Both the position numbers and the translations under genes were made by a program. Under the pieces are notes generated by a model, which saw nothing but the letters and a program-made list of their open reading frames with translations, did no database searches and had not been told where the DNA came from. Source: Hymenobacter gelipurpurascens (GTDB taxonomy: Bacteria; Bacteroidota; Bacteroidia; Cytophagales; Hymenobacteraceae). Taken from it: a DNA stretch of 64,000 nucleotides. The stretch lies in the NCBI RefSeq assembly GCF_900187375.1, contig NZ_FYEW01000001.1, forward strand, positions 1,860,001 through 1,924,000, read 5' to 3'. Of the stretch, positions 1-64,000 are shown in pieces. The stretch's first letter is position 1. Every line of letters begins with the position of its first letter.

Positions 1-1
1 G

Positions 2-1933
2 GATCCGCTGCCCGGTGGCAAGTTCCGCTTACACGCCGAAGCGGATAAAGCCTGGCTGGTGGATCTGCCGAGCGGCGAGTTGATGCAGGAAGTACTCGAT
101 GTAAAATTCGACAGAACGGTACAGGCCGGCGACACCCTCCGCTCCCCCATGCTCACGGCCGTGATACAAGCCGAGCCAGGCTACGAGGATGCGACTTCTA
201 AGGAGCGCTACTACTTCCAGTTGTACGACCAAGCCGATCTGGCTGACGAATACCAGAGCCGCCTGACGGTGCGCCCCGTCGATCGGGAATCGCGCATTAT
301 CGAGCTGACCAGCAAGGGCACCGTACCACAGAAGGAAGTGCAGTTTCTGGATACGCTCATGCGCGTGTTCGTGGAAGATGAACTGCGTGACAAAAATACG
401 ACGGGCCAGAAAACAGTGGCCTTCCTGAACAAGGAAATCGGGCAGCTTTCTGACTCTGTGCGTAAATCTACCGCGGCCCTGAGCTCCTTCCGCGCCGCCC
501 GGGGCATGGTGGATGTTACGGCCCAATCTTCAGCCGGTATTCAGCAGCAGGGCGAGCTGCAGATGACGCGCGCCAAAATTGCCACCAACCGCAAGTACTA
601 CCAGAATATGCTCAGCTATTTGCGGGCGAACCAGGGTGCTACCCAGATTGTGTCGCCGAGCAGCGTGGGCATTGAGGACCCTGTGGTGAACAACCTGATT
701 CTGCAGCTCACGGACCTGAACAGCCAGCGCGCAGCTCTGGGCGTGAATGCCAGCGTAGACAATCCCATGGTAACCATTCTGGATGAGCGGATCCGCTCGG
801 CAAAGCAAGCCCTAGCCGAAACCCTCATCAACATGACCCGCGCCACGGATATTGCCCTACGCGACCTAGATGCTCAGCTGGCCAAAGTGCGTGGCACCAT
901 GAACCAGCTCCCGGAAAATGAGCGCCAGCTGGCCTCCCTCAAGAGCAAAACCGATTTTAACGACAAGAACTATCAGTTCCTGATTGAGAAACGGGCCGAG
1001 GCCGCCATTGCGCTGGCCACCAACTCCACCGACAAGAAGGTAATTGACGAAGCCAGCATGACTGGTGGCGGCCCTACAGAGCCCAAGCCTGTGCTGGTAG
1101 GATTAATTGCCCTGCTGGCAGGCCTAGGTATTCCGTTTGGCATTTCGATGCTGATGGACAAAGCCAACCGCCGCATTCAGAGCAAAGAAGACCTCTCGCG
1201 CATTACTACTATCCCCATGCTAGGCGTAATTGCTCACGGCACCAAGCAGGATAAGGTAACGATGTTCACGGACCCCAAAGGGCCTATTGCTGAGTCGTTC
1301 CGCTCTATCCGCGTGAACCTGCAGTACCTTTCGGCTGGCCTAGACAAGAAAGTGATTGGCGTTACGTCGTCGGTGCCGGGTGAGGGAAAAACCTTCTGCG
1401 CAGTAAACCTGGCCGCCGAAATGGCCCAGAGTGGCCGCAAGGTGCTCCTGCTGGAATGCGACCTGCGCCGGCCTACGGTGGCAAGCTACTTCGACCTGGG
1501 CCCCAATTGCGCCGAGCATGGCCTGAGCAGCTACCTCATGGGCCTGAGCACCGTGGAGGAAGCCCGCCACGCCACCGGCGTACGCAGCCTGGACGTGATG
1601 TGCTGCGGCCCCATTCCGCCAAACCCCACTGAGCTGCTCGAAAGCCCCCGCATGACCGAGCTCATGGAACAACTGCGCACCGAGTACGAGTACGTGATTG
1701 TGGACACTCCGCCGGTCGGTTACGTGGCCGAGTTCTTTATGCTGCTGCGCCACCTCGATGCTAACATTTATGTGGTGCGCCAGAACTATACCGACAAAGG
1801 GTTGGTGAGCCACATCAATGAGCTGCACCAGGAGAAAAAAATCAAGCAGATCTATATGGTTATCAACGACGTGCACTTCACCAAGACCTACGAGTATCGC
1901 TACAAGGAAAAGGCCTACACCTACGGGTACTAG
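2..1933 (+). CDS. Wzc-like polysaccharide co-polymerase / BY-type tyrosine autokinase (5' partial)
   Basis: The frame is open to the left edge, so the N-terminus lies outside the window; the GTG at 59 is probably internal. The visible part holds the periplasmic coiled-coil Wzz/GNVR region, then a Pro-rich stretch running into a second membrane segment (about 1065-1165), then a cytoplasmic BY-kinase domain. Kinase motifs seen are Walker A SVPGEGKT (about 1370-1393), Walker A' LLLECDLRRPT (about 1445) and Walker B VIVDTPPVG (about 1695). The C-terminus is a tyrosine cluster (YEYRYKEKAYTYGY), the usual autophosphorylation tail. By family it controls export and chain length of Wzy-made polysaccharide in the inner membrane. 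It leads the exopolysaccharide locus, 47 bp ahead of the flippase. A Wza-like export gene would be expected upstream, outside the window. Confidence 0.9.
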   Translation, partial: DPLPGGKFRLHAEADKAWLVDLPSGELMQEVLDVKFDRTVQAGDTLRSPMLTAVIQAEPGYEDATSKERYYFQLYDQADLADEYQSRLTVRPVDRESRIIELTSKGTVPQKEVQFLDTLMRVFVEDELRDKNTTGQKTVAFLNKEIGQLSDSVRKSTAALSSFRAARGMVDVTAQSSAGIQQQGELQMTRAKIATNRKYYQNMLSYLRANQGATQIVSPSSVGIEDPVVNNLILQLTDLNSQRAALGVNASVDNPMVTILDERIRSAKQALAETLINMTRATDIALRDLDAQLAKVRGTMNQLPENERQLASLKSKTDFNDKNYQFLIEKRAEAAIALATNSTDKKVIDEASMTGGGPTEPKPVLVGLIALLAGLGIPFGISMLMDKANRRIQSKEDLSRITTIPMLGVIAHGTKQDKVTMFTDPKGPIAESFRSIRVNLQYLSAGLDKKVIGVTSSVPGEGKTFCAVNLAAEMAQSGRKVLLLECDLRRPTVASYFDLGPNCAEHGLSSYLMGLSTVEEARHATGVRSLDVMCCGPIPPNPTELLESPRMTELMEQLRTEYEYVIVDTPPVGYVAEFFMLLRHLDANIYVVRQNYTDKGLVSHINELHQEKKIKQIYMVINDVHFTKTYEYRYKEKAYTYGY

Positions 1934-1980
1934 CCCAAACGGTCACTTCCTTTTTCGCATAGCTACGTTCCTGCTCCCTC

Positions 1981-3537
1981 ATGGCCTCTACTCCAAAAGC
2001 GTCCCTGACTTCAGCCACCTTGCGCGGTATGCAATGGACTACGCTGGCCACGATAGCTACTGCTGTTATGCAGATTGGCTATACGGCCGTGATGGCCCGT
2101 TTGCTGGATCCTGCCGCATTCGGACTGGTGGCTATGGCGGGGGTAGTGCTACGGTTTGGCGGGTACTTTGCAGAGATGGGCCTGGGGCATGCGCTGGTGC
2201 AACGGCCCCAACTTACTCCCTATACTATCCGGGCTGTTTTCACGGCATCCATGGTGCTCGGAATAGCTGTAGCCGGCATCATGTGGCTGCTAGCTCCGCT
2301 GGCTGTTTTTTTCCTCAAAAATGAGGGAGTTGTGCCATTGGTACGAGCTCTTTCCTTGGGCTTTGTGGTGAATGCGGCGGGCATGACGGCCAGCAGCCTA
2401 TTGCGCCGGGAGTTGCAGTTTGATACGCTGGCAAAAATTGATATTGCCGCGTATGTACTGGCCTACGGGGGCTTGGGCATAGGCCTAGCCTGGGCTGGCG
2501 CCGGTGTATGGAGCCTGATTGCGGCCAGCTTGGCCCAGCAGTTTCTGGTCACGGTGTTTGCATATGCCACCGTGCGGCACTCCGTAAAGTTTTTGCTGGG
2601 GTGGGAGCATTACGCGCCTCTGCTGAGCTATGGCGGTCAGGTGTCCGTTATCAGTTTCCTGGAGTTCCTGAATACCAACATGGACACCCTGCTGATTGGA
2701 CGCTTGCTCGGCTCGGCGCCGTTGGGCATTTACAATCGGGCGTACATGCTGCTGTATTTGCCGGCGTATTTTCTCTCCTTCAGCGTTGGAAAAGTGGCGT
2801 TTCCGGCATTCAGTCAGCTGCAGGAAGACCCTCGCCGACTGGGCGCCGTGTATCTCACGTGCACCACGCTGGTGGCGTCGCTGATTTTGCCTTTGTGTGC
2901 AGGAGTAGCCATTGCCGCGCCCGAAATAGTGCGGGTATTGCTTGGCCCCCGCTGGACCGAGGCAGTACCGGTGCTGCAGGTCTTGTCGTTGGCCATTCCC
3001 CTGATCATGACCACGTTGTTTGCAGGAATTGTAGCCGATGCCCGGGCCAACCTAAGGCAAAAGATGGCACTCAACCTCCAGTACATCACCTTGCTGGTAC
3101 TCTTGTTCCTGGGGCTGTACCGCTTTGGCCTACTGGGTATTGCCGCCGCCATAGGCCTAGGAGAAATAGCCAGAGCGGGCCTCTACATGCGGCTCACTCA
3201 CCAAGATCTGCAGCTTTCCTTTCGGCAGTTGCTGGGAGTATATGGGCCAGGGCTTCGGGGCGCATTGGGTGTAGGCCTTACTCTGTTGCTGGTATCTGAA
3301 ATAATACGTCCCCTGGCGCTTCCGGGCTTGGTAGCACTCCTGCTTCAGATGGTTATGGGAGCCGTGTCGCTGGGTATTCTGCTGTTTCGCTGGCCCTCAC
3401 CAGAGTTGCGGCCGTGGCTTCTGCGAGCACTGCACGCCGTGTATCAGCAGCGCCTGGTTCCGCAGCGGATACGCATGCTGCTGGATAGGTATTTTGTTTT
3501 TCTGGAGCAGACGGAACCACAGCCCGCTGCGGCGTAG
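1981..3537 (+). CDS. Polysaccharide flippase (Wzx / MOP superfamily)
   Basis: This 518-residue, almost entirely hydrophobic protein has about 12-14 predicted membrane segments, the size and layout of Wzx/PST-type oligosaccharide flippases. The N-terminus (ATLRGMQWTTLATIATAVMQ) matches the usual start of this family, where an early Gly-rich helix is followed by a long hydrophobic run, and there is a typical internal stretch around LIGRLLGSAPLGIYNRAY. The role is translocation of undecaprenyl-linked repeat units across the inner membrane. It lies between the Wzc-like kinase and the Wzy-like polymerase, as expected for a Wzx/Wzy pathway. Start is the ATG at 1981. The symbol is not assigned because Wzx proteins diverge strongly. 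Confidence 0.88.
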   Translation: MASTPKASLTSATLRGMQWTTLATIATAVMQIGYTAVMARLLDPAAFGLVAMAGVVLRFGGYFAEMGLGHALVQRPQLTPYTIRAVFTASMVLGIAVAGIMWLLAPLAVFFLKNEGVVPLVRALSLGFVVNAAGMTASSLLRRELQFDTLAKIDIAAYVLAYGGLGIGLAWAGAGVWSLIAASLAQQFLVTVFAYATVRHSVKFLLGWEHYAPLLSYGGQVSVISFLEFLNTNMDTLLIGRLLGSAPLGIYNRAYMLLYLPAYFLSFSVGKVAFPAFSQLQEDPRRLGAVYLTCTTLVASLILPLCAGVAIAAPEIVRVLLGPRWTEAVPVLQVLSLAIPLIMTTLFAGIVADARANLRQKMALNLQYITLLVLLFLGLYRFGLLGIAAAIGLGEIARAGLYMRLTHQDLQLSFRQLLGVYGPGLRGALGVGLTLLLVSEIIRPLALPGLVALLLQMVMGAVSLGILLFRWPSPELRPWLLRALHAVYQQRLVPQRIRMLLDRYFVFLEQTEPQPAAA

Positions 3538-3567: not shown

Positions 3568-3583
3568 AGTGGCCTAGGCCACT
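3568..3583. repeat. 16-bp perfect palindrome built on the GGCCTA motif
   Basis: AGTGGCCTAGGCCACT is a loopless perfect palindrome, 31 bp after the flippase stop codon. No T-run follows, so it is not a classical intrinsic terminator. It is one of several head-to-head pairings of the window-wide AGTGGCCTA motif found at gene ends. Confidence 0.7.
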
Positions 3584-6828: not shown

Positions 6829-6869
6829 GAGTGGCCTAGCAATTCCTTATCTGCATTCCCGATCCAATT

Positions 6870-7877: not shown

Positions 7878-9181
7878 ACGTTTTGCTATCAGCTTACGCC
7901 TGTAACCCCTCTTATGGGGGTGAAGATGGCTTCGGCTTTCACTGGACCTGGCAAACTGCTCAGCAGGGCCACCGTGTGTGGTGCCTTACCAACCCTGCTG
8001 GCGAAGCCGATATCAAGGAATACCTGACCCAACATTCCGCTGAAATACCGAATGGCCGACTGCAGTTCACTTATGTGAGAGTGCCCAATTGGGTGGAATT
8101 TCTGTACCGGTGGCAGTTTGGGGTGTACCTGCACTACCTGGTGTGGCAGTTTCTAGCTTGGCGAGTGGCGCGCCGCCTTGATGCGCAGGTAAACTTCGAC
8201 TGGGTACACCACGCTACTTTTGGCAGCCTGCAGATGGGCTCCTGGATGTGGCGACTAGGCAAACCCCTGATTTTTGGGCCTGTAGGGGGCGGCCAGCGTG
8301 CGCCCAAAGCCTTCAAGCAATACCTGCCCAACTGGTTTAAGGCCGAAACTATGCGCAATGCGGTGGGCTGGCTTCTCATGCACCTCGACCCCAACGTGCG
8401 CCAGACGTTGCGCCACGCCTCCGTGGTATTAGCCACCAACTCCGAAACGGCCAACCTGGCCCAACGCATGGGTGCCCGCCGTGTGGAGCTTTTCTTGGAT
8501 TCGGGCTTGCCCGAGGATTTTTTTCTTCAGGATTATCATGTGCGGCAGCCACAGCCAACTCTGCGCCTGTTGTGGGTTGGCCGGTTTTTCCCGCGCAAAG
8601 CGCTGCAACTGGTGCTGGAGGCGCTAGGCCAGGTAAACAAGCAAGTTCCGTTTCATCTGACCATTATCGGCTTTGGCGAGCAGGAGGTGCTGTTGCCGGG
8701 CTGGCTCACGGAGTATGGCCTAGAGCAGCACGTAACGTGGCGTGGGCAGCAACCGTGGCCGCAGGTGCGCGAAGCTCTGCTTGAGCACGATGCCTTTATG
8801 TTCGGAAGCCTACGCGACTCCTTTGCCTCACAGTTTCTGGAAGCTATGGCGAGTGGCCTACCCATCATCACCCTCGACCACCAAGGAGCCCACGACTTCA
8901 TTCCGGATTCTGCCGGGCTGAAAGTACCGGTTACCACGCCGGCCGCCACCGCAGCAGCCCTGGCCCGTGCCGTCGAGTATTTCTACCATCACCCCACGGA
9001 GCGCGAGGCCATGGGTCGGGCTGGCTATGCCTTTGCACGTACCCAAACCTGGGGGGCCAAAGCCAAACGCCTGCAGACCCTGGCGCTTGGTTTAGTGCGC
9101 CCTAGGCCAGTACCGAGTGTGGCCGCTCCCGCTTCCAGCACAATGGAAGCCGATCTGCCCCTGGAGGCGATACCCCGATAA
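7874..9181 (+). CDS. Glycosyltransferase family 4 (GT-B fold)
   Basis: A 435-residue GT-B enzyme beginning MNVLLSAYACNPSYGGEDGF, a typical N-terminus of GT4 enzymes in exopolysaccharide loci. The C-terminal domain shows RLLWVGRFFPRKALQLVLEA and the acceptor/donor loop ASQFLEAMASGLPIITLD (E-x7-E region). The start overlaps the preceding stop by 4 bp (ATGA). A Pro/Ala/Ser-rich tail of about 30 residues ends the protein, as in two neighbouring locus genes. It is expected to be cytoplasmic or peripheral to the inner membrane and to extend the repeat unit; specificity unknown. Confidence 0.86.
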   Translation: MNVLLSAYACNPSYGGEDGFGFHWTWQTAQQGHRVWCLTNPAGEADIKEYLTQHSAEIPNGRLQFTYVRVPNWVEFLYRWQFGVYLHYLVWQFLAWRVARRLDAQVNFDWVHHATFGSLQMGSWMWRLGKPLIFGPVGGGQRAPKAFKQYLPNWFKAETMRNAVGWLLMHLDPNVRQTLRHASVVLATNSETANLAQRMGARRVELFLDSGLPEDFFLQDYHVRQPQPTLRLLWVGRFFPRKALQLVLEALGQVNKQVPFHLTIIGFGEQEVLLPGWLTEYGLEQHVTWRGQQPWPQVREALLEHDAFMFGSLRDSFASQFLEAMASGLPIITLDHQGAHDFIPDSAGLKVPVTTPAATAAALARAVEYFYHHPTEREAMGRAGYAFARTQTWGAKAKRLQTLALGLVRPRPVPSVAAPASSTMEADLPLEAIPR

Positions 9182-9278
9182 GTTATTTTCCATCTAGGCC
9201 AGTATTACCATCAGCTAGCCGCTCCGCCCAGTGCCGAACTAGGGAGGGTGGCCTAGCAACACTCAGCTTTTTCTATCT

Positions 9279-12024: not shown

Positions 12025-14523
12025 ATGCAAAATGCTGTTGGTTTTATGGGTTTAGCTACCCGCCGGGAAGAGTTTTCCGGTTCTGTGCGCCCTTCTTGGG
12101 CTTGGATATTTGCTTTCCTAATGAGCCTTCCTGCGCTGTCTTTCGCGCAGGCTCCTAATGTAACCTATAAGGCCCCGCTTGTTATCACGCAAGGCGGCAC
12201 GTATTCGGGCAATTTCCGAAGCGACGACTCCAATACGCCCGTAATCCGCATCCAGACCACGCAGCCCGTCATTCTGGAAAACTGCACGCTGGCGGGTGCC
12301 GGCGACATCATCCATGCTATTAATGGGCAGGCCGATGTGATTGTGCGCAACGTTAGTGCGTATGGCCTCACGCCTTCGCAGACTGGCCTAGAGCGTGGCC
12401 ACTTCTTTCGTACCGTTGATGCCCGACGCGTTACGGCTGAGCGCAACTACTTTGAAAGCATGAGTGGCTTTATCTTCTACCGTTGGGGTGGAGACGGGTC
12501 GGCGCAGCAGACGATGACGGTGCGCTACAACTCGGTCAAGAACCTGGATGCGCGCCGCCGCGACGGCAGCTACCCCCGCCAGGGCGCCGCTTTCGTGCTG
12601 CTCAACTCCGTGCGCAACCTGGCCGGCATCGACATCAGCTTCAACCAGGTCATCAACGAGCCCGACCAGAGCACCGTCTTCGACAACATCAACTTCTACA
12701 ACTCCAGCGGCACGGCCCAGAGTTGGGCCAAGGTGCACGACAACTACGTGCAGGGCGCCTACCCCTTCCCCTCCACATCCAGCGAGTTCTCTGGCTCGGG
12801 CATGACCACCGACGGCGACGGCTCGACGGCGCAGTCCACCGTGGCCTTCTTGGAGGCCTACAACAACCAGTTCGTGAGCACCTGCAACGCAGCCATGAAC
12901 ATTGCCGCCGGCCACGACATCTACTTCCACCACAACCGCATGGTCACCAGTGGCCTGCGCAAAGATGGGGTCCGCCTTAACTCTACCTACGCAGCTACTT
13001 CGAGCCTGAACCAGTATCAGATGCCAAGCAACGTATTTTACAATAACCGCACGGAGAACAACACCATCGGATTTGTAAAATGGGGATATAATGTTCCATT
13101 CCCTGATCGTCATGACCTGAGCGTTGGCGCGTGTGCTACCTGCACCGGTACTACGCACCTGCCGAACCCCATCACGCTCCAGACGGAGGCCAACGAGTGG
13201 ACTCTGTGGCAGCAGAAGCTGCAGCAGAATGGTGTAGCCGTAGGTCCGAACGGTTCTATCCCTGTCGCACCAGCACCAGCACCAGCACCAGCGCCTGCTC
13301 CGGCACCAACGCCAGCACCAGCGCCCGCTCCAGCACCCACCGGCGCTACTTTCGTACGTGCTATTAACGTAAATGGCAGCGCTCAAACAATTGATGGCAA
13401 AGCCTGGGAAGCCGGCAATGCTACCGGTGTTTCGATCAACGGTTCTACCTGGGAAGCTCAGAGCACAGCCCTGAACCCCGCTACCGACGCAGCCCGTGCT
13501 ACTATGATTCGCTCCATGAAGTATGGTTCGAATCTGACGGCCAACGTGAGTGTGAGCAATGGCACGTATCAGGTGTACACCTACGTATGGGAGGATAACT
13601 ATGCTCAGACGTTCAACATCGCGCTGGAAGGCAAGATTGTACAGAGCAACTACAACAGCGGCGCCGCTGGCCACTGGGACCGTTTAGGCCCGTTCACGGC
13701 CAACGTAACGGACGGCAACATTACGCTGAACCTCACGGGTGGCGACGCTAACCTTTCGGGCATTGAGATCTGGAAGCAGGATGGTACTACCAGTGCTCCT
13801 GCTCCTGCTCCTGCCCCTACTACTCCTACCACCACGGCTGGTTTCTACCGGGCTATCAACCTGAACGGCTCTGCTACCTCTATTGATGGCAACGCTTGGG
13901 AAGGCCGCTCGGCTGCCAACTACACCACCAACGGTGCTACCTGGGACGCGCAAAACGTTACCCTGACGACTGCTACAGACGCTAGCCGTGCTTCCATGAT
14001 TCGCTCGATGGTGTACTCGCGGAACCTGAGCTTCACGATGACAGCCGTACCGAATGGCGACTACGATGTGTATGCGTATGTGTGGGAAGATAACTACGCC
14101 CAGACTGTTAGCCTGACCGTAAACGGCAAAGCTGCCCTCACTAACTACAACACGGGTACTGCCGGTACCTGGAAAAAAGTAGGTCCGATTGCCGTAACGG
14201 TTACCAATGGCACCATCCAGCTGAACGGCACCGGTGGCGACCTGAACCTCTCGGGTGTGGAAGTATGGAAGAAGTCGACCACTGCTTTCCTGACTTCACC
14301 AGCTTCTGGCAGCCAAACCCTTTCGGGTGCACTTGCTCCACAACAGCAGGTAGCCGCAACGGCTCCTTCTTTGCAGATGTCAGCTTTGGCTGCTGCTAAG
14401 GTTGAGTTGCCGCTAGGCCAGTCAACGTCTGCTCAGACGTCAGTCGCTACCACTACTCGCCCTTTTGCTACGGAGCAGCGTGTATCTGCCCTGGCCCGAG
14501 TATTGACGCCACGCCTTATTTAG
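12025..14523 (+). CDS. Secreted beta-helix protein with two malectin-like carbohydrate-binding modules (paralogue 2)
   Basis: 832 residues. A signal peptide is visible (WAWIFAFLMSLPALSFAQ then APN), with a rather long polar N-terminal stretch before it. Residues about 50-400 are the beta-helix body shared with the preceding gene, including a block identical at DNA level. A (AP)n linker (about 413-438, 13262-13340) leads to module A (about 442-583), a second AP/T linker (about 586-604) and module B (about 606-750). The two modules are clearly homologous, sharing RAIN-NG, DG-AWE, YVWEDNYAQT and GGD-NLSG-E-WK, which fits malectin-like or CBM sugar-binding domains. A Ser/Ala/Gln-rich tail follows. 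No canonical type IX sorting tail is evident. A role in binding or trimming the exopolysaccharide is inferred. Confidence 0.77.
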   Translation: MQNAVGFMGLATRREEFSGSVRPSWAWIFAFLMSLPALSFAQAPNVTYKAPLVITQGGTYSGNFRSDDSNTPVIRIQTTQPVILENCTLAGAGDIIHAINGQADVIVRNVSAYGLTPSQTGLERGHFFRTVDARRVTAERNYFESMSGFIFYRWGGDGSAQQTMTVRYNSVKNLDARRRDGSYPRQGAAFVLLNSVRNLAGIDISFNQVINEPDQSTVFDNINFYNSSGTAQSWAKVHDNYVQGAYPFPSTSSEFSGSGMTTDGDGSTAQSTVAFLEAYNNQFVSTCNAAMNIAAGHDIYFHHNRMVTSGLRKDGVRLNSTYAATSSLNQYQMPSNVFYNNRTENNTIGFVKWGYNVPFPDRHDLSVGACATCTGTTHLPNPITLQTEANEWTLWQQKLQQNGVAVGPNGSIPVAPAPAPAPAPAPAPTPAPAPAPAPTGATFVRAINVNGSAQTIDGKAWEAGNATGVSINGSTWEAQSTALNPATDAARATMIRSMKYGSNLTANVSVSNGTYQVYTYVWEDNYAQTFNIALEGKIVQSNYNSGAAGHWDRLGPFTANVTDGNITLNLTGGDANLSGIEIWKQDGTTSAPAPAPAPTTPTTTAGFYRAINLNGSATSIDGNAWEGRSAANYTTNGATWDAQNVTLTTATDASRASMIRSMVYSRNLSFTMTAVPNGDYDVYAYVWEDNYAQTVSLTVNGKAALTNYNTGTAGTWKKVGPIAVTVTNGTIQLNGTGGDLNLSGVEVWKKSTTAFLTSPASGSQTLSGALAPQQQVAATAPSLQMSALAAAKVELPLGQSTSAQTSVATTTRPFATEQRVSALARVLTPRLI
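12490..12977 (+). repeat. 488-bp perfect direct repeat, copy 2
   Basis: Identical to 10578-11065 (offset 1912 bp). It encodes residues about 156-318 of the malectin/beta-helix protein. Sequence on both sides drops abruptly to paralogue-level divergence. Confidence 0.92.
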
Positions 14524-50410: not shown

Positions 50411-50420
50411 AAGGAGTGGC

Positions 50421-51842: not shown

Positions 51843-51850
51843 TACCTTTG
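51843..51850 (+). promoter_or_regulatory. -7 box TACCTTTG placed only 8 bp before the Ddl start
   Basis: Exact match to TAnnTTTG; an upstream TTG is at 51817-51819. Transcription would start at about 51856, giving a leaderless or near-leaderless mRNA for the ATG at 51859. Confidence 0.5.
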
Positions 51851-51858
51851 CGGCACGT

Positions 51859-54558
51859 ATGAAAATAGGCATCTTCTTCGGCGGCCCGTCGCGCGAGCGG
51901 GAAATTTCCTTTGCGGGCGGCCGCACTGTATATGATAACCTGGATAAGTCCTTGTTTGAGGCGGTACCCGTGTTCGTGGACAGCCTCGGCAACTTTATCC
52001 TGCTGGATTGGCACTTCATTTATAAAGGCACCATCCGCGACTTTTACCCACCCGTATCGGCGCTGCCGCGCACGGAGCTGCCGGTGCAGATGTACCTGGA
52101 AAGCCTGGGCGAGCTGAGCCTGGAGGAGCAGGACCGCATTATTGCGGAAGTAGGCCGGCGCGTGCTGCCTCACGAGCTGCCCCAGCTCATCGACTTCGCG
52201 TTCCTGGCTCTGCACGGCCCCGGTGGCGAAGATGGCGCTATTCAGGGCCTGTTTGAGTGGTACGGCATTCCGTATTCGGGCTCCGGCATTCTGCCCTCGG
52301 CATTTGGTATCGATAAAATTGCTCAAAAGAAGCTCCTAACGGCGCTGAATAGGCCTACACCCGCTTTCCGCCAGATTACGGCCGAAGAATGGGATGCCGC
52401 CGACCACGCCGCTACGCTGGAGTATCTGGTGCGCGAGCTAGGCCTGCCGCTGGTGTTCAAAGCGCCGCGCCAAGGCTCTAGCATCGGCATCAGCATCCTG
52501 CGCGAAGCGGACTTGGCGAAGTTTGAGACGGCTGTAGAGCGCAGCTTGTTCCGCAAAACTGTGACCAAGCAGGAGTGGCTAGGCCTATCGGAGCAGAAAC
52601 GCATCATGTGGCTGCAGCAGCTGGTGGATATCCGCGAGGGTATTGGCCTGCCGGTTGTGCTCAATGAGGAGCCAGAGCTGATTTACCAGCCGGAGCAACT
52701 GCTGAACATCCTGAACGAGCGCCTGCAAACGACCGAAAGCGTGCGCCTTACCAGCGTGGAGGGCGAAACGCAGGTGCTGGTGGAAAGCTTCGTGCATGGC
52801 CGCGAGTTTTCCTGCATTGTGGTAGAAGACCCCACCGGCAAGCCGTTGGCGCTGCCGCCCACCGAAATTGTGAAGGGCGAGGAGATGTTCGACTACCGAT
52901 CGAAATACCTGCCTGGCCTAGCGCGCAAAATCACGCCCATTGACCTGCCCGAAGCCGAAATTCAGCGCATTCGGGAAGCGTGCGAGGAGATGTTCAACAC
53001 CTTCGGCTTCCAGGTGTATGCCCGTCTCGACGGCTTTATTGGGCGCGATGGCAACCTCTTCCTGAACGACCCGAACACGACGTCGGGCATGTTGCCAGCT
53101 TCGTTCTTCTTCCATCAGGCAGCTGAAATCGGCCTGAACCCGTCGCAGTTTCTCACTTACTTGATACGCACTTCATTGGCAGCTCGCCGCCGAGGTGGCC
53201 TACGGCCAGTGAAGCTGGCGAGCCTGCTGGCGCAGCTGGATGCTGCTGTGGCGGCGCGGGCCAGTGAGGAGCGCACCCGCATTAAGGTGGCCGTCATTAT
53301 GGGTGGCTACTCTTCGGAGCGTCACATTTCGGTGGAAAGCGGCCGTAATATATACGAGAAGCTGAGCTCCTCGGTGAAGTATGAGCCGGTGCCTGTGTTC
53401 CTGACCGGCAACAGCCAGGAGTTCCGCCTGTATGTGCTGCCCATCAACGTGATGCTGAAGGACAACGCCGACGACATCCGGGAGAAAGTGGAGCACATGG
53501 AAGCCGGCCACGGCCTGCACCCGGTGCTGGCCCGCATCCGGCAGGAAGCCCAGGAAATCACGAATACCTACGCGGGTCAGCCCACGGCCCAGCCCCGGCG
53601 CGTGTCGTTTGAGGAGTTGGCCGGCATGGTAGATGAGGTGTTTATTGCCCTGCACGGCCGCCCCGGCGAGGATGGTGCCCTACAGCGCGAGTTGGAGAAG
53701 CTGGGCCTGCCTTACAACGGTTCGGGCGTAGCCAGCAGCTCTGTCACTATTAATAAGTTCGAGACCAACCGCCGCCTGCGCGAAGCTGGCCTACGCGTGG
53801 CCGAGCACCGCATGGCCAACCGCCTGGAGTGGGACGCCGATGCCGAAGGCTTTTACCGCAGCCTCGAAACGCAGTTCCCCTACCCCTTCATTGCCAAGCC
53901 CGCCGACGACGGCTGCTCTTCGGCAGTAAAGAAAATCAAGAACCGCGCAGAGCTGGAAGCTTTCACTAAGCTCATCTTCCGTGAGCAGGAAGACCTCATG
54001 ATTGCAGATGCGCAGACGTTGCATCTGGGCTTTAAGGAGGAATTTCCGCAGAAAGACGCTTTCCTGGTGGAAACCCTGATTGAGCGCGATGGCGCTGCCC
54101 ACTTCCTCGAAGTAACTGGTGGCCTACTAACGCACTGGGGCGAAAACGGCGAGCTGCAGATAGAAGTATTTGAGGCGTCTGAAGCACTGGCTACAGGCGA
54201 AGTACTGAGCCTGGAAGAGAAGTTTCTGGCCGGGGAAGGCCAGAACATTACGCCGGCCCGCTACGCCACCGAAGCAACTGAGCGCCAACGCATTTCTGAT
54301 GAAGTGAAACAGGAGCTGCGCCGCGTGGCTGAAGTGCTGAACATCCAGGGCTACGCCCGCATCGATGCATTTGTGCGGGTGCGGCAGAACGGAGCCGTGG
54401 AAGTGCTCATCATCGAGGTCAACTCGCTGCCCGGCATGACGCCCGCCACCTGCATCTTCCACCAGACCGCCCTGGCCGGCTACACGCCCTACGACTTCAT
54501 CGACCAGATTCTGGAGTTCGGCAAAGCCCGCCAGGAGAAGGCAGGCGTGCAGCAATAA
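51859..54558 (+). CDS. Tandem D-alanine--D-alanine ligase fusion protein
   Basis: 899 residues, about 2.5 times a normal Ddl (roughly 310-360). Module 1 (about 1-450) begins IGIFFGGPSREREISFAGG, has ALHGPGGEDGAIQGL, the ATP-grasp loop KAPRQGSSIGISIL and ends FLNDPNTTSGMLPASFFFHQ. Module 2 (about 475-885) begins VAVIMGGYSSERHISVESG, has ALHGRPGEDGALQRELE, the loop KPADDGCSSAVKKIK and ends IIEVNSLPGMTPATCIFHQ. Both modules keep the substrate-binding acid and metal ligands, although module 1 has Asp for Glu (DPNT). It should make D-Ala-D-Ala or a related dipeptide for peptidoglycan. Start is the ATG at 51859 after a -7 box. The PASTA gene is next. Confidence 0.88.
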   Translation: MKIGIFFGGPSREREISFAGGRTVYDNLDKSLFEAVPVFVDSLGNFILLDWHFIYKGTIRDFYPPVSALPRTELPVQMYLESLGELSLEEQDRIIAEVGRRVLPHELPQLIDFAFLALHGPGGEDGAIQGLFEWYGIPYSGSGILPSAFGIDKIAQKKLLTALNRPTPAFRQITAEEWDAADHAATLEYLVRELGLPLVFKAPRQGSSIGISILREADLAKFETAVERSLFRKTVTKQEWLGLSEQKRIMWLQQLVDIREGIGLPVVLNEEPELIYQPEQLLNILNERLQTTESVRLTSVEGETQVLVESFVHGREFSCIVVEDPTGKPLALPPTEIVKGEEMFDYRSKYLPGLARKITPIDLPEAEIQRIREACEEMFNTFGFQVYARLDGFIGRDGNLFLNDPNTTSGMLPASFFFHQAAEIGLNPSQFLTYLIRTSLAARRRGGLRPVKLASLLAQLDAAVAARASEERTRIKVAVIMGGYSSERHISVESGRNIYEKLSSSVKYEPVPVFLTGNSQEFRLYVLPINVMLKDNADDIREKVEHMEAGHGLHPVLARIRQEAQEITNTYAGQPTAQPRRVSFEELAGMVDEVFIALHGRPGEDGALQRELEKLGLPYNGSGVASSSVTINKFETNRRLREAGLRVAEHRMANRLEWDADAEGFYRSLETQFPYPFIAKPADDGCSSAVKKIKNRAELEAFTKLIFREQEDLMIADAQTLHLGFKEEFPQKDAFLVETLIERDGAAHFLEVTGGLLTHWGENGELQIEVFEASEALATGEVLSLEEKFLAGEGQNITPARYATEATERQRISDEVKQELRRVAEVLNIQGYARIDAFVRVRQNGAVEVLIIEVNSLPGMTPATCIFHQTALAGYTPYDFIDQILEFGKARQEKAGVQQ

Positions 54559-55732: not shown

Positions 55733-57601
55733 ATGCCTCGTTTCTTACGCTTCGTTACTAGTCTGGCAACCGCCGCGCTAGGCCTGTTTCCGCTCCTGGG
55801 CCAGGGCCAGGTAGTGGGGCCACTTTCCTCGGGCACACCGCTGCCGCCCGCCCCGGCTACCGCCCGCCGCCTGCAGGCCCTCACGCTGCCGTTTTTCGAT
55901 GATTTTTCCGGGCAAGGCGAGGGCCGCCCCGCCGAGCAGAACTGGCTCCAGACCGGCGGCACCTTGGTTAATAACCGCTTTGCTCGGCGCCCACCCTCCA
56001 AAGGCGTGGCTACCTTCGATGGGTTTCGGGCCGATGGGCGCTCTTACGGGGGCGTATCGGCGGTGGGTGCTACAGATTCGCTGACTTCTCAAGTCATTGA
56101 TTTGAGTGGCCTAGGGACCACTGATAATGTGTTCCTGAGCTTCTTTTGGCAGGCGGGCACGCTGCAAGGTCCGCCGGCGCCGGCTACCAGCTCCCGCCCC
56201 ATTGGGTTATATGTCGATTTTAAGGACGTGACCGGCAACTGGCGCGAGGTAGGCCAGATTCGGAGCGCTGGCGATACCACCAATTTCCGGTTTCGGGCCG
56301 TGGCTATCAATCAGACGAGCTACCTGCACAAGGATTTCCAGTTCCGGTTCCGGGTATTTGGCTACCAGTACAACGGCCGCGACGCCTGGAGCATCGACTA
56401 CGTACGGCTCGACCGCAACCGCTCGGCCACCGACTCCACCTTCCGCGATATTGCCCTGAGCCAACCCCTGCCTAGTGCCCTGCGCCGCTACACGGCCATG
56501 CCCGTAGGCCAGTTCAACCAGAACCCTACCCAGGAGTTGGCTGCCCGCACGCGCACCACCATGAACAACTTCGACGCCGGCCCTGCCCCTACGCCCATCA
56601 GCTGGACGGGCACGCTGGACGTGCTGCCAACGGGGCCTACCACGCAGTTTCTCACCGGAATTCGGTCCCTGGATGCTGGCCCGGGAGGTCAGCAGCAGCC
56701 TATCATCGGCAACCCGCAGCTGGCCACGGTACCGGTATCGGCCACGCCAAAGCGTCTGCGTCAGCGTATTACGCTGCTCACCAATGAAACCAACCCGCTC
56801 ACGCTGGCCAACGATACCATTTCGCGCGTTACGGAGCTAGCGGACTATTATGCCTATGATGATGGCAGCGCCGAAGCCAGCCTGAGTCTGCCCGCCGCCT
56901 CTACGGGGCCGGCCACGTACCTGGCCACCCGCTATGAGCTCAACCAGCCCGATGTGGTGCGCGCCATCCGGATTTATCCGCTGGCCACGGCGCTGGGCCG
57001 GACTATTACCGTCAATATCTGGGAAGACGCGAACAATCAGCCGGCCGCTACGCCCAAAGCGTCGCAGAGTATTCCGATTCCGAACCCGCTGCCCAACGGA
57101 CAGGCCTACCTCGACGTTCCTTTCGCGGCTCCGGTGCCCGTAAGCGGACGTTTCTACGCCGGCTACGGGCAGGCATCTACTTTGCAGAACGTGGAGTTTG
57201 GCGTCGATCTGAATAACGCGCCGCCAGCCGGCTATCTGTTCACCAGCCAGTTCGGCGCCTGGAGCCCAGTTAAGCTGGCCACTACCAAAAGCCCCGAAGG
57301 CGCCCTGATGCTGCGGCCGCTGATGGGTACGGCCGTGCTCACGGCAACCACTCTAGCCACTGTAGCGGCGGGCTATACGCTGTACCCCAACCCCTCAGCC
57401 GATGGCCTAGTGCAGGTGCAGGGCCGCTATGTGCGCGCAACGGTGCTCGATGCTTTGGGCCGGGTGGTGTGGGAGCAGCCCGCCGGCGAAGCGGGCAAAG
57501 CGCAGCTTTCCTTACAGCAACTTCGGCCCGGCGTGTATTTCGTGCGCCTTACTCTCGCTGGCGGCCTCACCGTCACGAAACAGCTGGTGCGGCAGAACTA
57601 G
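55733..57601 (+). CDS. Secreted protein with type IX secretion (T9SS) C-terminal sorting domain
   Basis: 622 residues from the ATG at 55733. A signal peptide is visible (FLRFVTSLATAALGLFPL, cleavage after GQGQ). The middle part is repetitive beta-sandwich-like with no named enzyme domain; SYGGVSAVGATDSLTSQVID resembles a jelly-roll/carbohydrate-binding region. The last 75 residues form a type A T9SS tail (YTLYPNPSADGLVQVQG, then LDALGRVVWE and RPGVYFVRLTLAGGLTVTKQ). It is therefore predicted to be exported across the outer membrane. The function of the mature part is unknown. Confidence 0.85.
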   Translation: MPRFLRFVTSLATAALGLFPLLGQGQVVGPLSSGTPLPPAPATARRLQALTLPFFDDFSGQGEGRPAEQNWLQTGGTLVNNRFARRPPSKGVATFDGFRADGRSYGGVSAVGATDSLTSQVIDLSGLGTTDNVFLSFFWQAGTLQGPPAPATSSRPIGLYVDFKDVTGNWREVGQIRSAGDTTNFRFRAVAINQTSYLHKDFQFRFRVFGYQYNGRDAWSIDYVRLDRNRSATDSTFRDIALSQPLPSALRRYTAMPVGQFNQNPTQELAARTRTTMNNFDAGPAPTPISWTGTLDVLPTGPTTQFLTGIRSLDAGPGGQQQPIIGNPQLATVPVSATPKRLRQRITLLTNETNPLTLANDTISRVTELADYYAYDDGSAEASLSLPAASTGPATYLATRYELNQPDVVRAIRIYPLATALGRTITVNIWEDANNQPAATPKASQSIPIPNPLPNGQAYLDVPFAAPVPVSGRFYAGYGQASTLQNVEFGVDLNNAPPAGYLFTSQFGAWSPVKLATTKSPEGALMLRPLMGTAVLTATTLATVAAGYTLYPNPSADGLVQVQGRYVRATVLDALGRVVWEQPAGEAGKAQLSLQQLRPGVYFVRLTLAGGLTVTKQLVRQN

Positions 57602-58024: not shown

Positions 58025-58108
58025 GCGAGTCCAGGCAAACGCTGGGCGGAATTTGGTGACTGGCCTAGCAGCTGGTTCCAATTCCTCCCGGCGTTTGCCT
58101 GGACTCGC
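58025..58108. terminator. Bidirectional terminator between convergent genes
   Basis: Arms of 29 bp (58025-58053 and 58080-58108) pair with two mismatches. T-runs lie on both outer sides. A GGCCTAG motif is in the loop. Confidence 0.88.
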
Positions 58109-59710: not shown

Positions 59711-60163
59711 ATGAAAACAGAACCCATCCATAACGCCATCAACCCGCTACAGCAACTGGACAACCAGTTGTGCTTCCCGCTGTATGCCCTCTCGCGGATG
59801 ATTACCAAGGCCTACCAACCCCTGCTACAGGAGCTGGACCTGACGTATCCGCAGTACCTGGTATTTCTGCTGCTATGGGAGCATCAGGAACTGACGGTGA
59901 AAGAGCTGGGCGAGAAACTGCTGCTGGATTCTGGCACGCTCACGCCCCTGCTCAAGCGCCTGGAGCAGAAACAATGGATCAGCAGGCGGCGCGACCCGCG
60001 CGATGAGCGCTCCGTGATTATCGGGCTGCTGCCGGCGGGGCGTGCGTTGCAGCAGCAGGCGTGTAGCATTCCGGAAAGCGTTTTCGCCCAACTCAATATG
60101 TCACAGGCGGAGTTTGAAACCCTTCGCACGCAACTGAAACACCTCTTAACCCAACTGGCCTAG
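59711..60163 (+). CDS. ohrR: MarR-family regulator, OhrR-like
   Basis: 150 residues. A peroxide-sensing Cys is placed as in OhrR (LDNQLCFPLYALSRM, residue about 22). The winged helix is VKELGEKLLLDSGTLTPLLK, then RRDPRDERSVIIGLL. OhrR represses ohr until Cys is oxidised by organic peroxide. The neighbouring ohr gene begins 35 bp downstream. Stop in CTGGCCTAG. Confidence 0.9.
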   Translation: MKTEPIHNAINPLQQLDNQLCFPLYALSRMITKAYQPLLQELDLTYPQYLVFLLLWEHQELTVKELGEKLLLDSGTLTPLLKRLEQKQWISRRRDPRDERSVIIGLLPAGRALQQQACSIPESVFAQLNMSQAEFETLRTQLKHLLTQLA

Positions 60164-60197
60164 GCCAGTATTTTTTTACTTTTCTTCTCTACTACCG

Positions 60198-60638
60198 ATG
60201 AAAATCGTTGAAAAATTCTTCACCGCGCAAGCCAAAGCCAAAGGTGGCCGCGACGGTGCCGTTACCACCAACAACAATGCGCTGACCGTTGACCTGAGCA
60301 CGCCCAAAGAAATGGGCGGCCCCGGCAAAGCCGGCGCTACCAACCCCGAGCAGTTGTTCGCCGCTGGCTATGCCGCCTGCTTTGAAGGCGCCCTGGGCGT
60401 TGCGGCCCGCCAGGCCAGCGTGAAGCTGGAAGGCGTGACGGTGGAAGCACTCATCGGTTTCGGCAAGGCGGAGGATGGCGGCTACGGCATCTCGGCCGAT
60501 CTGCACGTGAACCTTCCCGGCCTGGAGCAGAAGCAGGCCGAGCAGCTGGTAGAAGCGGCGCACGGCATTTGCCCCTATTCGCGCGCTACCAAAGGCAACA
60601 TTGAAGTGGCCCTCACCACAACTACCCACGCCGCCTAG
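60198..60638 (+). CDS. ohr: Organic hydroperoxide resistance protein (Ohr, OsmC family)
   Basis: 146 residues. The two redox Cys are in AAGYAACFEGALGV and GICPYSRATKGN. The dithiol reduces organic hydroperoxides. Adjacent to the OhrR-like gene, consistent with peroxide control. Stop in CCTAGGCC. Confidence 0.94.
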   Translation: MKIVEKFFTAQAKAKGGRDGAVTTNNNALTVDLSTPKEMGGPGKAGATNPEQLFAAGYAACFEGALGVAARQASVKLEGVTVEALIGFGKAEDGGYGISADLHVNLPGLEQKQAEQLVEAAHGICPYSRATKGNIEVALTTTTHAA

Positions 60639-60807
60639 GCCACTTGGCCGGCTAACGAGCTGTCATCCGGAGCGAACCGCATACATGGCGGTAGTGCAGA
60701 AACTCACGCCCGCTAACTGAACGCCACCTTGTGGGTTGTTCTATTGGGCAGGTTCTGCGTTCAGCTCCAGATGACAGCTTTGTTTTTCACTCCTCTTACC
60801 TCTCGCT

Positions 60808-61803
60808 ATGCAAAACCAAACCATCCGGCTGGCCAGCCGCCCAACCGGCGCCCCAACTGCCGAAACTTTCCAGTTTACCACTTCCGAAGCTCCTACGCCG
60901 ACTCCCGGCCAGGTGCTGCTCAAAACGCGCTACGTGTCCGTTGACCCCTATATGCGGGGCCGAATGAGCGCGGCGAAGTCGTACGTTGCGCCGTTTGAAG
61001 TAGGCGAGCCGATTGCGGGCGGCGTGGTGGCCGAAGTAGTGGAAAGCAACCTCGACAAACTCCCTGTCGGCAGCTTGGTAGTGGGCAACCTGCCGTGGCA
61101 GCAGTACACCGTTTCAGATGGGAAAGGCCTGCAGCAAATTCCGGCGGGCCCTGCACCCATCAGCTATTTCCTGGGCTTGCTGGGTATGCCCGGCCTGACG
61201 GCGTATTTCGGCCTGCTCGATATCTGTCAGCCCAAAGCCGGCGAAACGGTAGTGGTTTCCGGTGCGGCCGGAGCCGTGGGCATGGTCGTAGGCCAGTTGG
61301 CCAAAATAAAAGGGGCCCGCGTGATTGGTACCGCCGGCTCCGATGAGAAAGTGGCCTACCTGAAAGAGTTGGGTTTCGATGAAGCCATCAACTACAAAAC
61401 TGCCAACATCGCGGAGGCGCTGGCGGCGGCCGCGCCCAATGGCGTTGACTGCTACTTTGATAACGTGGGTGGTGAAATCACCGATGCGGTGTATGATTTG
61501 CTGAATAAGCACGCCCGCATTGCCCTCTGCGGCCAGATTGCCAGCTACAACGCCACCGAAGCACCTGTTGGCCCGCGCCCCGAAGGTAAGCTCCTCAAAA
61601 CCAGCGCCAAGCTGCAGGGCTTTATCGTTAGTGATTACCTGCCGCAATGGCCTGAGGGCGTGAAGCAGCTTACGGAATGGTATAGCCAAGGCAAGCTCCG
61701 GTTTGAGGAAACCATTACGGAAGGTTTCGACCAGATTCCGAACGCATTCCTGGGCCTGTTCAAGGGCGAAAACACCGGTAAAGCCCTTGTGAAAGTGGCC
61801 TAG
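60808..61803 (+). CDS. NADP-dependent zinc-free MDR-family oxidoreductase (CurA/leukotriene-B4-DH-like)
   Basis: 331 residues. The N-terminal GroES-like part has SVDPYMRGRMSAAKSY. The NADP-binding domain has ETVVVSGAAGAVGMVVGQLA and the following ARVIGTAGSDEKVAYLKE. No structural or catalytic zinc cysteines are visible. Such enzymes reduce alpha,beta-unsaturated aldehydes and ketones, which fits the peroxide/electrophile stress set. The gap of 169 bp to ohr holds no gene I can support. Confidence 0.9.
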   Translation: MQNQTIRLASRPTGAPTAETFQFTTSEAPTPTPGQVLLKTRYVSVDPYMRGRMSAAKSYVAPFEVGEPIAGGVVAEVVESNLDKLPVGSLVVGNLPWQQYTVSDGKGLQQIPAGPAPISYFLGLLGMPGLTAYFGLLDICQPKAGETVVVSGAAGAVGMVVGQLAKIKGARVIGTAGSDEKVAYLKELGFDEAINYKTANIAEALAAAAPNGVDCYFDNVGGEITDAVYDLLNKHARIALCGQIASYNATEAPVGPRPEGKLLKTSAKLQGFIVSDYLPQWPEGVKQLTEWYSQGKLRFEETITEGFDQIPNAFLGLFKGENTGKALVKVA

Positions 61804-61826: not shown

Positions 61827-62135
61827 ATGTCAACTTCAGCTGAAATTCTGTGCATCGTGGCCGAATGGCGCACCCGGCCCGAGCACGCCGAAACCGTACG
61901 CCAACTCATGGCGCAAGCCGCTGCGGCTGTTCGCCAGCACGAGCCCGGCAACCTGCTCTACGTAGGCCACCAGGACCCCAAAGACCCGGCGCATTTCCTG
62001 TTCTATGAGCAGTACGCCAACCAGGCGGCGCTCGATGCGCACGTGGCTTCGGCCCACTACAAGGAACTGGTAGCCGGCCAAATTGTGCCGCTCCTGACCG
62101 AGCGCACGGTTTCACTGTATAAGCTACTGGCCTAG
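61827..62135 (+). CDS. ABM-domain putative quinol monooxygenase
   Basis: 102 residues, the full YgiN-like fold: LCIVAEWRTRPEHAETVRQL, GNLLYVGHQDPKDPAHFLF, then YEQYANQAALDAHVAS. Cytoplasmic; no signal peptide, unlike the ABM protein at 46808. It is 23 bp after the MDR gene and 42 bp before the DJ-1 gene, so an operon is likely. Confidence 0.87.
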   Translation: MSTSAEILCIVAEWRTRPEHAETVRQLMAQAAAAVRQHEPGNLLYVGHQDPKDPAHFLFYEQYANQAALDAHVASAHYKELVAGQIVPLLTERTVSLYKLLA

Positions 62136-62858: not shown

Positions 62859-62860
62859 GC

Positions 62861-62945
62861 CTAGGCCACTTCCCGAACGACAACGCCTCCCCTATTTCCG
62901 ATAAACGGAGATAAGGGAGGCGTTGTCGTTCAGGAAGTGGCCTAG
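62861..62945. terminator. Bidirectional terminator with 40-bp arms carrying the AGTGGCCTAG motif
   Basis: Arms 62861-62900 and 62906-62945 pair with three mismatches around a 5-nt loop (ATAAA). Each arm's outer end carries a CTAGGCCACTTCC motif or its complement. It lies between the convergent DJ-1 and LacI genes. Confidence 0.88.
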
Positions 62946-62964
62946 AAACTTTATTTACGGCTGA

Positions 62965-64000
62965 TCAGCCAGTTACATTACCCGCAAATTTGGCTGCCGG
63001 ATCTCGTACCGGGCTGGGCAATGCTCCTTCTGTGCGGGCCGAGGAGCCGCGCACCAGCAGCTCGGGGCGCAAGGCAATGTGCCGCGGCGCAAAGGGGCGG
63101 CCGTCGGCCTCAATCAGCTCCAGCAGCAGGCGCACGGCCGCCTGGCCCATTTCTTCGCAACGCTGGTCGATGGTAGTGATGGGGGGCTCCGTGATGGTCG
63201 TGAAGGTCTCGTTGCTAAACCCTGTGATGGCCACATCCTGCGGCACCTGTAGGCCTAGGCGGTGCGCTTCCTGCATGGCCCCGAGGGCGCTGTAGTCGCC
63301 GGCGGCAAACACGCCATCCGGTGGGTTCGGGAGAGCCATGAGCTGCCGAAGTGCTTCAGCACCTTGGTCCTGGGCCATTTCGGTATAGATGATCAGGCTT
63401 TCATCCTCGGGCAGCCCAGCTTCGCGCAAAGCATCGAGGTAGCCCTGCCGACGGTTTTTGTAGATATTCAGGTGCTGCGGACCGGCCAGATGCGCAATGC
63501 GGTGGCACCCCTGCTGCAGCAAGTGCCGCGTAGAAACGTAGCCACCCTCCTGGTCGTCGAGCACTACAGCATTCACGTTCTCGCCCTCTACCACGCGGTC
63601 GAAAAACACTAGTGGCAGGCCGCGGCTACGCACTTTCTCGAAGTGCCGAAAGTCGCGCGTAGTGCGCGACAACGACACCAATACGCCTGCTACCTGCGCA
63701 CTAAGCAGGATATCGAGGTTGCGCCGCTCCTGTGCCACATCTTCGTTCGACTGGCAGATAATAACGTTGTAGCCTGCTTTGCTGGCCGCCGACTCAATTC
63801 CGTGCACTACCGAGGGAAAGAACCGGCCCTCAATGTACGGCACCACAATGCCCAGCAGCTGGCTTTTGCCTTTGCGGAGCGCTGATGCTAGGCGGTTGGG
63901 CTGGTAGTTATACTTCTTGGCCAGCTTGAGCACTTTTTGCTTCATGGCGGGCCCAATGCTATGATGGTCGCTCAGGGCCCGCGAGATGGTCGTCATGGAT
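62965..64000 (-). CDS. LacI-family transcriptional regulator (5' partial)
   Basis: The coding frame continues through the right edge. The visible first residues SMTTISRALSDHHSIG are helix 2-3 of the LacI headpiece, so roughly 15-20 N-terminal residues are missing, and the ATG at 63996 is internal. The hinge is YNYQPNRLASALRKGKSQLL, followed by a periplasmic-binding-protein-like effector domain (IVVPYIEGRFFPSVVHGIE; GVFAAGDYSALGAMQEA). It probably responds to a sugar-type ligand; target genes lie outside the window. Confidence 0.93.
   Translation of the reverse strand, partial: SMTTISRALSDHHSIGPAMKQKVLKLAKKYNYQPNRLASALRKGKSQLLGIVVPYIEGRFFPSVVHGIESAASKAGYNVIICQSNEDVAQERRNLDILLSAQVAGVLVSLSRTTRDFRHFEKVRSRGLPLVFFDRVVEGENVNAVVLDDQEGGYVSTRHLLQQGCHRIAHLAGPQHLNIYKNRRQGYLDALREAGLPEDESLIIYTEMAQDQGAEALRQLMALPNPPDGVFAAGDYSALGAMQEAHRLGLQVPQDVAITGFSNETFTTITEPPITTIDQRCEEMGQAAVRLLLELIEADGRPFAPRHIALRPELLVRGSSARTEGALPSPVRDPAAKFAGNVTG

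Follow-up and report, generated by a model that had tools for sequence, protein, structure and literature searches.

Why does the hexamer GGCCTA, or its complement TAGGCC, recur so often along a 64,000-nucleotide stretch of the Hymenobacter gelipurpurascens genome (contig NZ_FYEW01000001.1, positions 1,860,001 to 1,924,000; hereafter the window), and what might read it? Counts in the window, in its own genome (G000; 5,060,948 bp in 9 contigs) and in related genomes revealed that the hexamer, which a preliminary description of the window had called hyper-abundant, is the core of a longer unit, ASTGGCCTAG. Direct observation established this motif, its genome-wide excess, its presence in one clade and its maintenance; it also showed that the spacing is even in two of the four carriers, that a prophage holds few copies and that other dialects exist. 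We consider it quite possible, and propose tentatively, that ASTGGCCTAG is a clade-specific tag for the recognition of self-DNA, most likely acting in the uptake or recombination of DNA from kin.

Abundance and form of the word

In the window, GGCCTA was found 117 times and TAGGCC 85 times, a total of 202 where an order-1 Markov (dinucleotide) model predicts 48.7 (4.1-fold), giving about 3.2 sites per kb; they fall on either strand, within genes as well as between them. An earlier hand count of about 10 between positions 33001 and 36000 proved to be exactly 10. Under the same model, TGGCCTA was counted 105 times against 11.5 expected, and AGTGGCCTAG and ACTGGCCTAG 18 and 16 times, with 0.2 expected for each. 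Across the whole of G000, TGGCCTAG was present 4306 times (2169 forward and 2137 reverse), compared with 91 (40 and 51) for a control consisting of the same word read backwards on both strands. The reported hyper-abundance was borne out both in the window and genome-wide, and a count no higher than composition predicts did not occur. Within a 400-kb stretch, both strands together held 1108 copies of GGCCTA (2.77 per kb) in G000 and 192 in the sister genome G361. A check for strand bias, proposed with the original observation, found none: the ratio of GGCCTA to TAGGCC was 560/548 in 400 kb of G000, and 514/507, 464/441 and 343/331 in G412, G318 and G404, the three other genomes that carry the word.

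The reading that an excess of this kind is an artefact of composition or codon usage was weighed against coding and non-coding sequence, and we give it hardly any credence. Some other top words are indeed coding-driven. For GGCCTA, however, 212 genes of G000 with an orthologue held 168, 39, 144, 203 and 20 copies in the five phases without an internal stop, whereas shuffling synonymous codons within genes yielded 45, 8, 60, 42 and 2, an observed excess of 2.4- to 10-fold. The claim that the word sits in every reading phase therefore stands for these five phases, each of them enriched. The amino acid differed from that of G361 at 225 of 948 motif codons (23.7%) and at 10235 of 52369 other codons (19.5%). 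In non-coding DNA of G000, G412 and G318 the density was 4.77 per kb (407 sites in 85.3 kb), compared with 0.50 per kb (7 sites in 14.1 kb) in G361, which is about ten-fold lower; G404 had 2.72 per kb (65 sites in 23.9 kb). The synonymous shuffle, the non-coding density and a sister genome that has nearly the same GC content and, like most of the genus, is without the word together rule out codon usage and composition.

The 407 non-coding sites, minus 100 that overlap another copy, gave the consensus A 73%, S 91%, T 79%, GGCCTA, G 78%, the sites being drawn from three related genomes and not all independent. The unit is thus longer than the hexamer first described and asymmetric, and CTAGGCC, which had been called a palindrome, is not one. 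Such a graded, asymmetric 10-mer resembles a site bound by a protein. Sorted by gap type, density was highest between convergent genes, at 5.95 per kb (33 sites in 5.5 kb), followed by tandem gaps at 4.70 (148 sites) and divergent gaps at 3.01 (23 sites). GGCCTAG supplies the stop codon of 13 of 239 genes in G000, 15 of 280 in G412, 13 of 254 in G318, 12 of 228 in G404 and 1 of 219 in G361. Two perfect inverted pairs of the 10-mer stand in the window, and its exact sites are the following (ORF, open reading frame).

3568 to 3583, no strand assigned: inverted pair AGTGGCCTAGGCCACT made up of two exact 10-mers, within the gap that follows ORF 1981-3537
6830 to 6839, plus strand: exact 10-mer
9102 to 9111, minus strand: exact 10-mer
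9194 to 9203, minus strand: exact 10-mer
12382 to 12391, plus strand: exact 10-mer
14413 to 14422, minus strand: exact 10-mer
23290 to 23299, plus strand: exact 10-mer, its TAG the stop of ORF 22007-23299
23328 to 23337, minus strand: exact 10-mer
29982 to 29991, minus strand: exact 10-mer
30525 to 30534, plus strand: exact 10-mer
32887 to 32896, plus strand: exact 10-mer
33411 to 33420, minus strand: exact 10-mer
33440 to 33449, plus strand: exact 10-mer
33684 to 33693, minus strand: exact 10-mer
37774 to 37783, minus strand: exact 10-mer
37808 to 37817, minus strand: exact 10-mer
39617 to 39626, minus strand: exact 10-mer
43224 to 43233, minus strand: exact 10-mer
43747 to 43756, plus strand: exact 10-mer
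44804 to 44813, minus strand: exact 10-mer
46324 to 46333, plus strand: exact 10-mer, its TAG the stop of ORF 43790-46333
46687 to 46696, plus strand: exact 10-mer
49942 to 49951, plus strand: exact 10-mer
50415 to 50424, plus strand: exact 10-mer that overlaps the phosphoglycerate kinase (PGK) gene (50421-51677, minus strand) at its 3' end
56105 to 56114, plus strand: exact 10-mer
58059 to 58068, plus strand: exact 10-mer
60154 to 60169, no strand assigned: inverted pair ACTGGCCTAGGCCAGT, two exact 10-mers, the TAG of the first copy ending ORF 59711-60163
60635 to 60644, minus strand: exact 10-mer
61794 to 61803, plus strand: exact 10-mer, its TAG the stop of ORF 60808-61803
62126 to 62135, plus strand: exact 10-mer
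62861 to 62870, minus strand: exact 10-mer
62936 to 62945, plus strand: exact 10-mer

One clade and other dialects

The nearest named match of G000, at 86% over 310 residues of one protein, was Hymenobacter perfusus, in a search that may omit the record of the window itself. Among 296 genomes of the phylum, G000 included, TGGCCTAG was found in thousands of copies only in G000, the next count being 120 (control 94). Among 120 Hymenobacter genomes it was counted 4554 times in G318, 4381 in G412, 4306 in G000 and 2587 in G404, and at most 544 times in the next. G412, G404 and G318 are nearest to G000 in PGK (92% identity), and the next genomes, at 90%, are without the word. In a PGK tree of 35 genomes (G000, the 30 nearest to it and five that carry the second word described below), the four carriers formed one clade with a support of 0.985. 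A further tree, built from 122 genes (131,544 aligned sites) with G361 as the root, resolved them as (G000,(G404,(G412,G318))), both inner splits having a support of 1.000; PGK alone groups G404 with G412 (0.785). Codon alignments were made for genes from five 400-kb regions, about 8% of the genome, in G000, G404, G412, G318 and G361, and coding identity to G000 was 81.0% for G404, 80.3% for both G412 and G318 and 75.9% for G361.

A second word, CCTAGG, was found in six genomes, namely the five that rank just below the four carriers in their count of TGGCCTAG, and G307. The five had been candidates for weak carriers of the same word, which was rejected, as they carry CCTAGG instead. In a tally of both strands, in which one site can score twice, MCCTAGG reached 12154 in G363, 12121 in G379, 10520 in G347, 9966 in G307, 8198 in G313 and 8058 in G398. 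None of the other 114 Hymenobacter genomes exceeded 1213; the two highest of these are G318 and G412, whose own motif overlaps the CCTAGG word. The core of this dialect is palindromic, and five of the six genomes formed one clade (PGK support 1.000) in a sample drawn by nearness to G000, their own near kin standing outside the comparison.

A third word belongs to Pontibacter. Ten genomes were counted for AAGTATAA, which was present 6884 times in P. chinhatensis (control 82), 6609 in P. flavimaris (88), 2125 in P. fetidus (133), 790 in P. burrus (141) and 474 (124) and 509 (138) in two other Pontibacter, compared with 50 (33) in Solirubrum, 57 (48) and 69 (45) in two Hymenobacter and 369 (538) in a Cesiribacteraceae genome. 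In 20-kb samples AACTATAG was the top word of P. burrus and P. fetidus. The Hymenobacteraceae thus hold at least three clade-specific words, ASTGGCCTAG, CCTAGG and AAAGTATAAA. Neither Hymenobacter word was high in 110 of the 120 Hymenobacter genomes, and since genomes without both words were inspected mainly in short samples (23 loci and the window, the best 30 of 80 loci, and 400 kb of G361), further dialects may exist. Two Bacteroidota loci had iterated words of their own in both-strand counts: TTCCGGAA in L044 (11 kb), with 28 copies against 0.9 expected, and AGTTATTC in L051 (21 kb), with 14 against 0.7.

Maintenance, decay and spacing

Of the G000 motifs with an orthologous site, G412 had 275 of 496 intact and G318 had 264 of 495, compared with 32% for words of the same composition, and the motif ranked 2nd of 1339 words and 9th of 1357 in conservation, respectively. 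In G404 the figure was 207 of 478 (control 32%, rank 126 of 1287), and in G361 it was 37 of 365 (control 25%, rank 1020 of 1055), most of the others being one or two substitutions off. With G412 and G318 pooled, retention depended on the flanking bases: at position -1 it was 64% with T, 51% with A, 23% with C and 21% with G; at -2, 59-60% with C or G against 38-40%; at -3, 63% with A against 45-49%; and at +6, 62% with G, 51% with C and 39% with T (A, 6 of 10). Retention therefore follows the full unit, flanks included.

GGCCTA was lost, though present in the other three genomes, at 15 of 100 sites in G412, 19 of 104 in G318, 26 of 111 in G000 and 50 of 135 in G404, whereas 101 control words of the same composition, some of them overlapping the motif, were lost at 25%, 28%, 35% and 28%, respectively. 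On one tip only, GGCCTA was found at 52 sites in G412, 44 in G318, 18 in G404 and 81 in G000, where they may be older; single-tip control words were near equal (2504 in G412, 2376 in G318 and 2514 in G404). In Fisher tests that take sites as independent and use one outgroup, G412 and G318 lost the motif less than they lost control words (p 0.002), G404 lost it more than control words (p 0.02), and G404 showed more loss (p 3e-5) and less gain (p 2e-5) than its two sisters. These data indicate that the word was built up in the ASTGGCCTAG clade, continues to be kept and gained in two lineages and is decaying in G404. A depletion of near-miss words, considered as a sign of directed conversion, was hinted at in the window and disappeared against the sister genome, near misses standing at 1.01- to 1.10-fold in the four carriers and control-word medians at 0.91 to 0.97.

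The words of the other dialects were, in small samples, mostly kept above the average hexamer, though not everywhere. CCTAGG was kept at 9 of 14 sites between G398 and G313 (mean hexamer 0.33) and 23 of 28 between G363 and G379 (0.51), and at 6 of 17 between G379 and G347, where 0.35 is not clearly above the average of 0.32; ACCTAG was kept at 20 of 40 in the first pair and 18 of 30 in the second (0.60 against 0.51). Two Pontibacter kept AAGTAT at 17 of 35 and AGTATA at 14 of 37 (mean 0.25), and two others kept ACTATA at 7 of 20 and CTATAG at 2 of 9 (mean 0.15).

Clusters of GGCCTA, binned at 5 kb, had a variance-to-mean ratio of 0.49 in G000, the lowest of 84 similarly abundant words, and 0.70 in G412, the lowest of 79; several of the words with the next-lowest ratios overlap the motif. 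In G318 the motif is sparse at about 875-910 kb, and of seven ORFs scanned at 880-900 kb, three matched phage portal, head-protease or tail families, another matched a PHROG without assigned function and three matched nothing, the phage-family matches indicating that this stretch is a prophage. G404 has a motif-poor stretch at 3.06-3.10 Mb, where six scanned ORFs include AbiEi/AbiEii and an ImpB/MucB-type polymerase.

The even spacing in G000 and G412, the high density, the maintenance and the freedom from codon phase would fit equally well a site for a protein of chromosome organisation, replication, recombination or repair, needed every few hundred bases and with no role in uptake. Chi and the FtsK-orienting polar sequences (KOPS) have strand polarity. 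The absence of strand bias here is unlike these sites, and the word is lacking in most of the genus and swapped for others in relatives, which would be unusual for a core function; we consider a chromosomal site unlikely.

Candidate readers and known systems

In a model like that of the highly iterated palindrome (HIP), an orphan DNA methyltransferase would modify the motif, and copies would be ratcheted up by mismatch repair that methylation directs, or by some other function dependent on methyl groups (Elhai's model). HIP1 and its alternates behave much as this word does and switch between genomes (PMC4390886); the CCTAGG dialect core is palindromic, and G000 encodes an MmeI-type enzyme along with another protein that is MmeI-like. 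Polarised one-step losses, considered for a signature of cytosine deamination, numbered 10 in G000, 12 in G412, 14 in G318 and 38 in G404, and core-cytosine transitions among them 4, 4, 7 and 5 (small numbers); the 15 of 36 in the first three genomes are compatible with a modified cytosine and lean slightly toward this model, and the losses in G404 were mostly A-to-G (18) and T-to-C (9). Against it, the ASTGGCCTAG unit is not palindromic, and no methyltransferase common to the four carriers was found among PF00145, PF01555, PF02384 and MmeI-like proteins, a search that left aside PF02086 (D12), PF07669 (Eco57I) and minor families. PF00145 (C5 methylase) is present in G318 and G412 and lacking in G000 and G404, on which ground HaeIII-like C5 methylation of GGCC was rejected; it was found in G307 alone of the six CCTAGG genomes and in 7 of 12 others, and the sole match of G318 falls within its motif-poor prophage stretch. 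Among the carriers PF01555 was found in G000 only (G361 has it too); PF02384 had no match in G404, and its single weak match in G000 is the MmeI-type enzyme, which is full-length in none of the three other carriers; the second MmeI-like protein, of about 1150 residues, is in G000, G404 and G361 and in neither G318 nor G412. We regard methylation of this kind as unlikely, to the same degree as the chromosomal site, and infer from the anatomy of the motif (a graded, asymmetric 10-mer, no phase, no strand preference, evenness in two genomes, dialects, few copies in a prophage, maintenance together with a decaying lineage) that it fits the tag of a DNA-binding protein better than a methylation site.

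The MmeI-type restriction-modification enzyme itself (G000:C8:2-2575, minus strand; loci L158/L293) runs off the contig end and has N-terminal, helical, methyltransferase and target-recognition domains, with full-length relatives in G315, G420 and G347. The second protein (1152 aa; G000:C1:1700883-1704341, plus strand, in L168) has relatives in other Hymenobacter and Pontibacter genomes.

For a self-DNA tag, the following route may be envisaged. A putative sequence-specific factor would read the 10-mer in double-stranded DNA; copies would arise at scattered sites through ordinary point mutation and be retained since tagged DNA is favoured, most likely by preferential uptake or recombination of tagged kin DNA, as with DNA uptake sequences (DUS), so that selection or drive would act via DNA uptake. 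An outer-membrane machine other than type IV pili might feed the ComEC channel, and G404 would have lost or weakened its reader.

Several observations weigh against a role in uptake. Neisseria uptake sequences are read with parts of the type IV pilus. In a set of 33 genomes, comprising 15 classed as carriers of a motif (for G418 on the basis of a 20-kb sample alone) and 18 others, and holding at least one genome twice (G323 and G421 have identical coordinates), PF00437 (PilB/PilT/GspE, the ATPase of type IV pili and the type II secretion system) was above cut-off in none, although it had matches in 14 of 14 control genomes, above cut-off in 13; short matches below cut-off were found in five genomes (G410 and the four Pontibacter G413-G416). 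The machinery known to read such tags was thus not found, and an uptake role would have to assume competence without type IV pili. ComEC was present in all 33, and so equally in genomes not known to carry a motif, and does not discriminate. Density in the compared regions was 2.42 per kb in genes without an orthologue and in conserved genes alike, and one-off forms, where decayed tags might be expected, were not clearly in excess. At 20 kb the evenness of spacing ranked just 7th in G000 and 8th in G412, and G318 (1.30 at 5 kb, 2.97 at 20 kb) and G404 (0.86, 2.19) were not unusual or were over-dispersed, in part because of their motif deserts. A literature search, which did not reach most subscription journals, turned up no title on natural transformation in Hymenobacter or Pontibacter and none on iterated words of this kind in either genus. 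With these points counted, the self-DNA tag keeps the tentative standing given above, and a broader version, in which the Hymenobacteraceae would hold a family of at least three self-DNA tag dialects read by a methylation-independent uptake or self-recognition machine other than type IV pili, is possible and somewhat less likely.

Several other features were noted. Words containing GATC, which are unrelated to the motif, are strongly avoided in 400-kb stretches of G000, G361 and G412 (L168-187, L208-247): CGATCG was found 8 times against 174 expected in G000, 2 against 178 in G361 and 2 against 125 in G412. In the window, each half of a 913-aa ORF (51817-54558, plus strand) matches D-alanine--D-alanine ligase, in the manner of two fused ligases; three adjacent universal stress protein genes stand by a P-type ATPase gene, with a fourth further upstream (41073-43739 and 33475-34293); and positions 1-33000 hold a long polysaccharide-type cluster with a flippase, glycosyltransferases and GDP-fucose and dTDP-sugar genes.

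The best-known examples of genome-wide iterated words that come in dialects are those of Neisseriaceae, Pasteurellaceae and cyanobacteria, where the partner is a pilus receptor or a methyltransferase (PMC4390886, PMC3630211). The same behaviour is met here in Bacteroidota, with neither partner found among the families searched. For Riemerella columbina, another member of the Bacteroidota, a preference for its own DNA has been reported, and the same paper presents k-mers that are over-represented in three Flavobacteriaceae as putative uptake words (PMC7965970). Three lineages at full density, one nested losing lineage (G404) and close sisters without the word offer a natural comparison: any gene that the keepers share and G404 has lost would be a candidate reader, and gene content alone could make the question testable. 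In the aligned regions, 17 genes are present in G412 and G318 and missing in G404, several of them at a region edge.

Like Chi and KOPS, ASTGGCCTAG is an over-represented short recognition word; unlike them, it is without strand bias, denser and missing in sister species. The likeness to HIP1 and uptake sequences suggested at the outset held for behaviour (genome-wide, on both strands, in all phases, with dialects, and evenly spaced in two of four genomes) and was not supported for membership in either class, given the asymmetric unit, the lack of a common methyltransferase among the four kinds searched and the absence of PF00437 above cut-off. In HIP elements a palindrome goes together with a methyltransferase that matches it (PMC4390886). 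ASTGGCCTAG shares with HIP1 and the alternate HIPs of cyanobacteria a genome-wide iterated word in genes and gaps that is switched among relatives (PMC4390886), and differs in its asymmetry and in having no common methyltransferase among those kinds. From the DUS of Neisseriaceae and the uptake signal sequences (USS) of Pasteurellaceae it differs in its Bacteroidota host, in PF00437 being above cut-off in 0 of 33 genomes and in that no receptor was found, and it is denser than DUS. DUS occur as clade dialects (PMC3630211). With DUS and USS, ASTGGCCTAG has in common that it is a short non-palindromic word, present in thousands of copies on both strands, with clade dialects and evolutionary retention, and with some copies standing as inverted pairs in gaps.

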